A DNA stretch of 64,000 nucleotides. Source: Methanolobus profundi (GTDB lineage: Archaea; Halobacteriota; Methanosarcinia; Methanosarcinales; Methanosarcinaceae). The notes under the pieces are model-generated. The model had not been told where the DNA came from. It saw nothing but the letters and a program-made list of their open reading frames with translations, and made no database searches. The translations under genes and the position numbers were made by a program. Shown in pieces: positions 15,527-62,208 of this stretch. The stretch covers positions 142,374 through 206,373 of the forward strand of contig NZ_FOUJ01000002.1 of NCBI RefSeq assembly GCF_900114835.1. The letters are read 5' to 3'. How positions within the stretch are numbered: position 1 is the first letter of the stretch; each line of letters opens with the position of its first letter.

Positions 15527-16423
15527 TCATTTACCGACGGGTCTCAGCTCATTGAGCATCATACTCGTTATCTGATGCCTGACCTGCTCCCTGCGGTCAT
15601 ATGTTGACTTGTAGTAGACGGTGATCTTAACACCATCTCTGTCAGAACCGAGGAAAAAGCTCACGCTGACATCAAGGGTGTTCCAGACCATTTCCTTCAA
15701 CGCCTCTACCTTTGCAGGCAGATCCTCTGGAAGGTCATCCATTTCAAAATACATATCGAACTCGTTCCTGAACTTTCCCCTGCCATGATTCTTGATAGGT
15801 TGCTCAAGGAAGACCTTGTTCGGGATCTTAAAGAAATCATCATAAGTATCAGGCGTGGGAGTTACAACCACATAGAAAAGCCCGATATGCTTCACCTGTC
15901 CTTCAAGGTAGTCATCCTCACCAACCCTGATATAGTCACCGATCTTGAAAGGCTTCTTTGTAAGCAGGATGAACCAGATGAAATAGGAAAGAATGATATC
16001 TCTGATAGCAAAGGCAAAACCCGTGGTGATCAGACCAAGGAAGATGGCTATGTTATTGACAGTAATACCAATATACCAGAAAACCGCCAGCGTAGCAAGA
16101 AGATATACGAACCAAAGGTACATCTTGCCCATAAGTATGCGTTCCTCGATCTCTCCCATTTCCTCAAAATAATTGAGAAAACGATTTACGGTCAGTTTCG
16201 TGAAAAGTGTAGCTACGGCATAAGACACAAAAATGACAACTAGGGCTTCCAGTGTACCTGTCACAGCTTCCGGAACAGATATCAGATGCCTCTTATCAGC
16301 AGCAATTATTCCAAGGGCAATGAGGATCATCACTGCAAAGAACATGAAGAAAGAGTTCAATGACTTGTGCATTAGTTTTGACCTTACATATATCAAGCCA
16401 CTTCTCGGTGTCTTTTTACCCAT
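15527..16423 (-). CDS. MscS-family mechanosensitive channel
   Basis: 298 residues from the ATG at 16423, chosen because AAGGAG lies nine bases before it; the ATG 18 bases upstream overlaps that motif. There are three to four membrane helices; the pore-lining helix includes NNIAIFLGLITTGFAFAIRDIILSYF, followed by the beta domain start KKPFKIGDYIRV, both diagnostic for MscS. The C-terminal cytosolic vestibule (about 210-298) has the usual alpha/beta pattern. The channel releases solutes on hypo-osmotic shock. Monocistronic; it faces away from the anchored-protein gene at 16601. Confidence 0.9.
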   Translation of the reverse strand: MGKKTPRSGLIYVRSKLMHKSLNSFFMFFAVMILIALGIIAADKRHLISVPEAVTGTLEALVVIFVSYAVATLFTKLTVNRFLNYFEEMGEIEERILMGKMYLWFVYLLATLAVFWYIGITVNNIAIFLGLITTGFAFAIRDIILSYFIWFILLTKKPFKIGDYIRVGEDDYLEGQVKHIGLFYVVVTPTPDTYDDFFKIPNKVFLEQPIKNHGRGKFRNEFDMYFEMDDLPEDLPAKVEALKEMVWNTLDVSVSFFLGSDRDGVKITVYYKSTYDRREQVRHQITSMMLNELRPVGK

Positions 16424-16600
16424 ATACAAATGCTCCTTCATCCAGATATTGACCTTCTATTTATCGATGGTCTATCTATATCAGATCATCGACATATTCT
16501 GACCGGAGCCAGATGCAACTTTTTTAATATCATGCACACATACGAATATTTACTTACGCTATTGAACGATTATATAGACAGTGGATAGGAGGGGAGTAGC

Positions 16601-17446
16601 ATAGACACAAAAAAGCTGATCATAGTCTTGATGATAATTCTGCTGTCTGTTATTTCAGTCAGTGCTTTCTTGCGTTCAGAAATGGAAGTGAATGATACAA
16701 ACAGTATTTCCAGAGTAGATGATACAGAACAAAATTCAGGCATCATTTCAAAAGTAGATATTGAAAGTGGTCTTATTGAAGTTTCAGATGACTGGGATTC
16801 TTATGAAACAGTACTTATCAGCTCAGAGAAACTAAATGTTTCCGCATGGGAGGGAAACATAAACCTGACGTTAATGGATAAGAATATCGACATCATGATC
16901 CAGACATCCGGTGAAAGAACGGACAGTATATGGTACAAAGGTTTTGCTGATGGCAACCCTGATAATAACGTCGATATTAGCATCAGAGATGAGGGAGTGT
17001 ACGCATCCATAACCACCTATGACCGGATGTACAACATATTTCCAACCGATATTGTTACCGACGGAGAGACCGTCCATCTGGTATCTGCGTACAATATTTT
17101 GGATACACGGGCACTGGAGGAAAAATACCCCATAGACCCTCTTACATTTGAGGTGATCAATGAGGACAACGTAGAACATGACTTTGCCATTGAGGTCTAT
17201 GACCCATATCGCAATCTCATATTCAATGAGAGCTATTCGCTGCAACCCGGCGAGACCATCCAGTCACCTGAGATCAGCAAGGAACTCGGTTTGCATCGTT
17301 ATGTGTACACACTTGACAATGATGAAAAATTCACAGAGAACGCTAGAGTTGAACGTTTGTCCGAGCTTGGTTCTTCTCAACGGGTCTCATTCATATTCAT
17401 AGATGACCCTGAGATCCAGATGGCGATCAGGACAGAACAGGCATAA
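16601..17446 (+). CDS. Membrane-anchored extracellular protein with probable ATA start
   Basis: 281 residues if translation starts at the ATA at 16601. GGAGGGG (16588-16594) lies six bases before that ATA, and the resulting N-terminus MDTKKLIIVLMIILLSVIS is a textbook signal anchor. The next canonical start, TTG at 16628, is over 30 bases from the ribosome site and would lose the two lysines. An in-frame TAG at 16586 excludes an upstream start. The exported part is acidic, beta-rich and repetitive in style (DDWDSYETVLISSEKLN), with no cysteine and no known family. It ends without a second anchor. Confidence 0.65.
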   Translation: MDTKKLIIVLMIILLSVISVSAFLRSEMEVNDTNSISRVDDTEQNSGIISKVDIESGLIEVSDDWDSYETVLISSEKLNVSAWEGNINLTLMDKNIDIMIQTSGERTDSIWYKGFADGNPDNNVDISIRDEGVYASITTYDRMYNIFPTDIVTDGETVHLVSAYNILDTRALEEKYPIDPLTFEVINEDNVEHDFAIEVYDPYRNLIFNESYSLQPGETIQSPEISKELGLHRYVYTLDNDEKFTENARVERLSELGSSQRVSFIFIDDPEIQMAIRTEQA

Positions 17447-17480: not shown

Positions 17481-18671
<1,191 letters not shown>

Positions 18672-19162: not shown

Positions 19163-19888
19163 TCAGAAGATGCCTGTTCCGTAGTCTGAGGAGAGCTTTC
19201 TCTTCTCAATACGTCCACATTCCGGGCATTTCAATCTGTTGTTATCCTTGTCCATAGGACTGTGGCATCTTGAGCAGTATGCCTTCATAACACCAAGGTC
19301 CTTACCATCTGTGGTCAGGCGCATGTTCTGGGTGTTGATGACCTTTGCCTTGACAACATCGGAAAGAGAGAACTCCTGTCCAAGGTTCTTGACATAGGAA
19401 TCCTTCACGTTGGAAACGTGGATAGCTGCTGCACCATTGGTCTGGAACTCACGTTCGCCTTTACCTTTGATAGCACCGACCTCTACAAGAGCAACGGACT
19501 CTCTCATGTTGACAACGCTACCTACAATGACATCACCCTCAACGATCTCAGGAGGAATGCTTGTCTGAGGCACCACTGATATGGTCCTTGACTTCCTGTT
19601 CACCTTTACGTATCCGGTATTGAGTGAATGGATATCTGCCACATTGACAAAGGTACCATTACCTGCCCTGAACTCTTCCGTAGTCCCTATTAAGTCTCCG
19701 GGCATTACAAAAACACTTTCCTCTGTGTTAACTTCGTCTTCTGCATCCATATCATCATCTTCCCTGGACCCATTCTCGGGTTGCATATTCTTCTTTCTTG
19801 CTCCGCCACGTTTGGAATGTTCCTTCTTTGGTCTGGCGGAACCTTTCTGAACCTCTGCCTGCACGTCAGCAGTTGCCTGTTCAGTCAC
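19163..19888 (-). CDS. csl4: Exosome subunit Csl4
   Basis: 241 residues from the GTG at 19888. Domains in order: a basic/acidic disordered leader (about 1-58), the N-terminal beta domain starting VMPGDLIGTTEEF, an S1 RNA-binding domain (about 105-185) and a C-terminal zinc ribbon (YCSRCHSP..KCPECG). Csl4 caps the archaeal RNA exosome and recruits DnaG. The frame stays open and highly basic 29 codons further upstream, up to an ATT at 19975 that lies six bases after GAGGG, with an ATA at 19969. There is no ATG in between, so the true start may be non-canonical. Confidence 0.9.
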   Translation of the reverse strand: MTEQATADVQAEVQKGSARPKKEHSKRGGARKKNMQPENGSREDDDMDAEDEVNTEESVFVMPGDLIGTTEEFRAGNGTFVNVADIHSLNTGYVKVNRKSRTISVVPQTSIPPEIVEGDVIVGSVVNMRESVALVEVGAIKGKGEREFQTNGAAAIHVSNVKDSYVKNLGQEFSLSDVVKAKVINTQNMRLTTDGKDLGVMKAYCSRCHSPMDKDNNRLKCPECGRIEKRKLSSDYGTGIF

Positions 19889-20057
19889 AGTAACTTCTTC
19901 ACCGGCAGCCTGATCCTCGGAATCAGATGGTTTTATCTTCCTGCGTGAAGTCTTTCTTCTATTTCTTATCCTAATTAGAATCCCTCATATGAGCTGAAAT
20001 TAATATAAAAATGTGCTGCGTCCATGAACTTTTAAGTAATAACGGTGATAGCTGGTG

Positions 20058-61666: not shown

Positions 61667-62208
61667 TTGTCCTCAGCCTTTACTTCATCTCTTTTTAAGA
61701 CCGAAACATCGTCCCCGACAATAACTATCTTGGGACCTTTGATCTCGAGGACCTCCACATCCTCATCAAGCAGAGCACAGTTCACCTGCACCGTAGAAGG
61801 CTTGTTAACAATATCACATCCCAATGACTTGGCAATGCCTTCAACAGAGTTACGATTATGGACCTCGGTGGCTGTTGTGACCACAGGTACCGGACCGATC
61901 TCGGCTATCTTCCTGACAACCTCATTGCCACCATGATGGCCGCCAAGCAGAGGGATTGCGAAATTCATGTTGGAATCAACCACAATGACCGCAGGGTCCT
62001 TCCACTTGTCCTCGATGAGAGGTGCGATCTCTCGCACAACAATGCCAGTGGCAAATACAGCCACAATAGCATCGTACTCCTCGAATGCCTTTTTGAAGAT
62101 GGTCTTGTCATACATCAGGACATCAGCATTCAGATGTCCTGCCAGGCGCTCTGCAACCTCAAGATTTCTCTCAAAGGTTATGATAGCGGTTCTTGTGCCA
62201 CTCCGTAT
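61663..62208 (-). CDS. cbiG: CbiG N-terminal and central domains, probable ATA start
   Basis: 181 residues if translation starts at the ATA at 62208. The central core ([54 protein letters not shown]) is typical of CbiG. The upstream codons encode [16 protein letters not shown], equivalent to the first strand and helix of CbiG, so the ATG at 62115 is too late. No ATG, GTG or TTG lies between the in-frame TAA and 62115. GGGAGGT, inside cbiF, ends 7 bases before the ATA. The gene overlaps cbiF by 31 bases. Confidence 0.85.

Follow-up and report, generated by a model that had tools for sequence, protein, structure and literature searches.

Translation does not normally start at AUA, a codon that is usually rejected in this role. 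Near-cognate starts are nevertheless known from the bacterial infC genes, which begin with AUU in E. coli and with AUA in S. aureus. Two other S. aureus genes, ccpN (AUA) and cvfC1 (AUU), each carry a conserved extended Shine-Dalgarno sequence (SD), and their starts yield about 10% of the output of AUG, rising to as much as 30% for ccpN in rich medium (PMC13009471). In archaea, non-canonical starts are discriminated against by aIF1 (PMC6237735, PMC8211752). When the histories of prokaryotic start codons were traced, only one of 61,358 AUG starts had changed to AUU, and none was listed as having changed to AUA (PMC5622118). In a literature search we found no report of archaeal AUA starts, of conserved AUH starts (AUA, AUC or AUU) in archaea or of the start codon of RadB, which does not prove that none exists.

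Here, we analyse a gene of Methanolobus profundi (GCF_900114835.1) that appears to start with AUA. It lies in a stretch of 64,000 nucleotides, referred to as the window, which spans positions 142,374-206,373 of contig NZ_FOUJ01000002.1. Coordinates without further specification are those of the window.

Results

A putative AUA start in front of a signal anchor

The gene is found on the plus strand between two genes on the minus strand, a mechanosensitive-channel gene upstream (15527-16441) and a SepSecS-family gene, probably SepCysS, downstream (17481-18644). An earlier note, made from the sequence alone, had proposed that the frame starts at an ATA six bases behind a GGAGGGG motif and that an in-frame TAG closes it upstream. 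Direct reading bears this out: the SD GGAGGGG occupies 16588-16594, the ATA 16601-16603 and the TAG 16586-16588, five codons before the ATA. The codons that follow the ATA are GAC, ACA, AAA, AAG, CTG, ATC, ATA and GTC, after which come TTG (16628) and ATG (16631). No ATG, GTG or TTG was read in the frame of the gene between the TAG at 16586 and the TTG at 16628.

Starting from the ATA, the coding sequence (16601-17446) comprises 281 amino acids and a stop codon. Its first part (16601-16690) is predicted to encode a signal anchor or signal peptide of the charged-then-hydrophobic kind that the earlier note had described, with the residues DTKK followed by a hydrophobic helix (residues 3-30 in the model), and the hydrophobic segment is conserved. 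The objection raised there to the TTG at 16628, that it is too far from the SD and removes the charges, also holds: the TTG and the ATG lie 33-36 bases after the SD, the TTG falls within the membrane helix of the predicted protein, and a start at this codon would strip the charged residues from the anchor.

In the AlphaFold model (mean pLDDT 84.6), the N-terminal helix is connected by a disordered linker to two beta-sandwich domains. The first has middling structural matches, ADAM17 prodomain-like and others. The second, C-terminal domain (residues 179-281) gives a transthyretin/HIUase-like match with a Z score of about 8, and many unrelated beta sandwiches score equally high. No functional family could be assigned by comparison with Pfam, NCBIfam or the PDB. 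Judged from the model, the protein is most likely exported and membrane-anchored, with a partner that is unknown.

AUH is conserved at the aligned start position

Homologues were searched for in 27 genomes of the genus Methanolobus and fall into orthologues (group A) and paralogues (group B). The intact orthologues are those of G019 (72% identity), G024 (58%), G007 (57%) and G023 (56%), while the paralogues, present in six genomes, share 35-38%. Many of the 27 genomes lack the gene. In G012, the orthologue is broken by frameshifts, and the gene thus seems to be dispensable in that lineage. A search of genome contigs for related loci with the single protein as query gave no match.

At the position aligned with the ATA, three of the four intact orthologues also have ATA (G019, G024 and G023) and the fourth, G007, has ATG. 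Among the paralogues, ATA occurs four times, with ATC in G022 and ATT in G021, so that AUH stands at the start in 10 of the 11 Methanolobus members of both groups and AUG in one. More distant relatives, from the genus Methanosarcina, have ATG at the aligned position; in one of them (L058 in G101), ACG is found where its kin have the ATG start, and the frame looks internally deleted. Upstream of the start codon, the frame is free of ATG, GTG and TTG in every group A member, and in four of the five it contains a stop (5, 9, 5 and 18 codons upstream).

A maximum-likelihood tree separates groups A and B, with strong support, from the relatives that use ATG. The only ATG gene within them, that of G007, is nested among ATA genes. 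The simplest reading of this tree is that an AUH start was already present in the common ancestor of both groups and reverted once to AUG. With this, a sequencing error is excluded and a start at the downstream TTG or ATG becomes very unlikely. The earlier note had suggested looking at the codon in related genomes, and had named, among the outcomes that would refute it, orthologues starting 27-30 bases further in and an ATG misread as ATA. In the orthologues, the ATA or ATG stands exactly here, and a conserved start further in is absent from all of them. An isolated sequencing error is excluded because the ATA is kept at the homologous position in three of the four intact orthologues.

The G007 locus (L006, reverse strand) has a feature of its own. 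Some 14 bases upstream of the ATG lies a short ORF (MKGNLHENKE) that overlaps the start and is equipped with a strong SD of its own. This is possibly another way of keeping the output low.

The Shine-Dalgarno sequence is unusually strong

As a reference for SD strength, we used 172 genes with a conserved ATG, sampled from 463 kb of the same genome, for which the median duplex energy is -6.3 kcal/mol. The SD of the AUA gene pairs with the 16S tail at -11.0 kcal/mol, a value that only 4% of these genes reach. The other AUA orthologues have similar energies (-10.3, -11.4 and -10.6 kcal/mol), and the AUG orthologue in G007 has -6.2 kcal/mol. These values fit the idea that a strong SD compensates for a weak start codon, which rests, however, on a single AUG case. 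A strong SD is not universal among AUH genes, given that the SD of group B is only average (-6.9).

The combination of a strong SD with an in-frame ATA is not beyond chance on its own, and several such sites lie inside ordinary genes in the same type of scan. As a detector it was rejected, with many hits internal to ordinary ATG genes (for example at 18581 in the SepSecS-family gene, and in L067 and L074). The AUA site rises above chance because AUH is conserved at the aligned position in orthologues and paralogues and because the frame is closed, or lacks a canonical start, upstream.

Other genes with AUH starts in the Methanosarcinaceae

We scanned 307 genes in 463 kb (about 15%) of the same genome and aligned 238 genes with the regions syntenic to them in three other Methanolobus genomes. 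Hits were kept only where AUH was conserved, sequence identity was lost upstream and no better canonical column was available. This yielded two further clear cases, radB and the gene of an ABC-transporter ATPase, and two possible ones, csl4 and cbiG_N. The view of the earlier note that ATA starts are very rare stands for genes overall. The start at 16601 is not unique in this genome, as radB, the ABC ATPase gene and probably one or two more in the sampled stretch share the trait.

RadB (TIGR02237; L063:6765-7427, equivalent to C16:86765-87427 of the same genome, plus strand) has an ATA start after AAGAGGTGTAAAAT. The gene starts with ATA in all 26 Methanolobus genomes and, in 60 of 60 genomes of other Methanosarcinaceae genera, with ATA or, in Methanimicrococcus, with ATC; in two Methanohalophilus-type genomes the ATA lies one codon earlier. 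In these 60 genomes no AUG, GUG or UUG start of RadB was found, and AUG is absent from the RadB start in all 86 genomes of the family examined. Named records with the ATA start include Methanosarcina, Methanococcoides, Methanohalophilus and Methanomethylovorans. RadB relatives in the Methanotrichaceae and ANME-1 have an ATG nearby. In many radB frames, a stop separates the SD (GAGGTG) from the ATA, and in 25 of the 26 Methanolobus genomes an in-frame stop lies at most 10 codons upstream of it.

For the ABC-transporter ATPase gene (L071:1555-2457, equivalent to C16:311555-312457, minus strand), the start could be read in 26 Methanolobus genomes, of which 25 have ATA and one has ATG. The 20 genomes of other genera all have ATT, ATA or ATC, in one case a codon earlier, which brings the AUH start to 45 of 46 genomes.

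In the Csl4-like exosome gene (19169-19969, minus strand), the conserved GGGATTCTAATTAGGATAAG block suggests that translation starts at ATT or ATA, which compete for this role. A conserved ATG, GTG or TTG start is lacking in the four Methanolobus species aligned, and an ATG is close by in most Methanosarcina. An AUH start is probable here on comparative grounds, with the exact codon uncertain. The short CbiG_N gene (61669-62208, minus strand) has ATA with GGGAGGT in 27 of 27 genomes. It was downgraded, since the cobM-like gene upstream overlaps it and covers the ATA with its 3' end, which confounds the conservation of this codon. A further gene, Band-7/HflK-like (L076:11020-11781, minus strand), has an ATC after GGAGAGTGATCAT, and its canonical alternatives are weak, as judged from the sequence of this locus alone.

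Discussion

The conserved odd start suggests a deliberately weak start codon, which gene annotation would miss. We consider it very likely that translation of the surface-protein gene starts at AUA 16601, directed by the SD, and that the ordinary initiator tRNA decodes a near-cognate codon that is kept for low output, even though protein, ribosome-profiling and reporter data are lacking. The parts of this proposal differ in their footing. The comparison of genomes gives good support to where translation starts and to the conservation of AUH, with AUG being rare. Decoding by the initiator tRNA, low output and regulation are inferred, the latter two by analogy with bacteria and without any measurement in archaea.

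In the proposed mechanism, the strong SD would set the AUA into the P site of the small ribosomal subunit, where the normal initiator tRNA would pair through its CAU anticodon with the A and the U and tolerate the mismatch at the third base. The protein would presumably begin with methionine (Met-Asp-Thr-Lys-Lys...). The genome has two identical, ordinary initiator tRNA genes with a CAU anticodon; a special initiator tRNA for AUH was considered, and none was found beyond these two. Because archaeal aIF1 discriminates against non-canonical starts, AUH would be expected to give little output and to be sensitive to the factor. The weak codon would be there by design, with selection retaining AUA, AUC or AUU and disfavouring AUG, and it may hold synthesis of the surface protein low and sensitive to aIF1 stringency or ribosome supply. 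Within the family, radB and the ABC-transporter ATPase gene would share the same device. With its AUG, G007 shows that the gene can do without the weak codon.

The AUA start could also be real and yet functionless, a product of drift that is tolerated where expression is low and ribosomes accept AUH. The change to AUG in G007 and the absence of the gene from many Methanolobus genomes speak for drift, and the presence of AUH in several unrelated genes means that such tolerance may be general. A single transition, however, turns AUA into AUG, and yet AUG is found at the start of RadB in 0 of 86 genomes and of the ABC gene in 1 of 46, while the third base does interchange between A, U and C. We therefore think drift unlikely, without being able to set it aside.

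Less room is left for initiation on a leaderless mRNA, in which transcription would begin a few bases from the ATA and the ribosome would start on a 5'-terminal AUA without any SD. The nearest TATA-like sequence on the plus strand (16570-16578) lies about 20 bases upstream of 16598. In Methanolobus psychrophilus, the TATA box lies 19-22 nt from the transcription start site (TSS) and about 16% of transcripts are leaderless (PMC5378194). With this spacing, a transcript from the element, if it is used, would begin only a few bases from the ATA and lack the SD, which counts against an SD-directed start; use of the element is not proven. An alternative TATA-like sequence, AATATTTA at 16544-16551 on the plus strand, would by inference give a leader of about 28 nt that includes the SD. 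Against a leaderless start stands the SD, which is present at the right distance in all orthologues. In group B, moreover, the block GGAGTGGAG looks like a conserved SD with a TATA box upstream of it, and likewise the conserved block TGGAGTGGAGTAAAATH like an SD below a conserved TTTAAATA box. The conserved TATA box of the paralogues is placed for an SD-containing leader. TSS data for the AUA gene itself are lacking. Taken together, we regard a leaderless start as improbable.

A start at the TTG at 16628 or the ATG at 16631, with the conserved AUH as an untranslated or unimportant triplet, is what automatic annotation would choose, as these are the first canonical codons and the TTG ORF appears in a list of the reading frames. 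Apart from their distance from the SD and their place inside the helix, these codons are not conserved in the orthologues, whose alignment has no canonical column at all. Moreover, an in-frame three-base insertion in G019, together with the charged residues kept before the helix, indicates coding from the ATA, and we give this alternative very little credence.

Weakest is the proposal that AUH is an internal Ile codon of a longer protein, which would show the same interchange of AUA, AUC and AUU and, in the paralogues, might start at the in-frame GTG or TTG found five codons upstream (at -15) in five of the six group B genes; for group A it is excluded by the upstream stops, the lack of upstream starts (as in the AUA gene itself, likewise in G024 and G007) and the ATG at the AUH column in G007 and the outgroups, and it also runs counter to the in-frame TAA immediately before the ATA, between GTG and ATA, in the G024 paralogue, to the SD-like reading of GGAGTGGAG and to the stops upstream of radB.

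An SD-directed start at AUA thus remains our preferred reading. Extending it to the family, the AUH genes of the Methanosarcinaceae (radB, the ABC ATPase gene, the surface-protein family and probably csl4 and cbiG_N) might form a layer of translational control that tracks aIF1 stringency or the state of the ribosomes, with N-termini that are wrongly annotated. We put this forward tentatively and with more doubt than conviction; that the AUH genes form a regulated set is possible but unproven.

That AUA is kept throughout the genus, and in radB throughout the family without AUG, points to a start that is weak on purpose or to ribosomes that accept AUH more readily, and both options can be tested directly in the genetically tractable Methanosarcina. 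For annotation, it also means that N-termini predicted from ATG, GTG and TTG alone are wrong for a recurring fraction of genes, at least 3 of the 238 compared, among them the DNA-repair factor RadB. In the AUA surface-protein gene, the signal anchor loses its charged part through this error.

Comparison with described non-AUG starts

The AUH device is known in bacteria (infC, ccpN and cvfC1), and no description of its conserved use in archaea was found in the literature searched. Archaeal GUG and UUG starts are likewise examples of non-AUG initiation by the initiator tRNA. They involve a mismatch at the first base and are common and annotated, whereas AUH is a third-base mismatch that is normally discriminated against by aIF1 or IF3. 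With infC, the archaeal genes share an AUH start, a good SD and conservation between species. The gene described here does not, however, qualify as infC-type, since its product, a signal anchor with two beta-sandwich domains and no Pfam or NCBIfam hit, matches no initiation factor. In infC the product is IF3 itself, which leads to autoregulation, while here the products are a surface protein, RadB and an ABC ATPase, and the archaeal ribosome has aIF1 in place of IF3. In ccpN of S. aureus and B. subtilis and cvfC1 of S. aureus, as here, a conserved AUH codon is combined with a strong SD and was missed by annotation (PMC13009471). Those bacterial starts were established by profiling and reporters, while the archaeal ones rest on comparison only and, in the case of radB, are conserved across the whole family.
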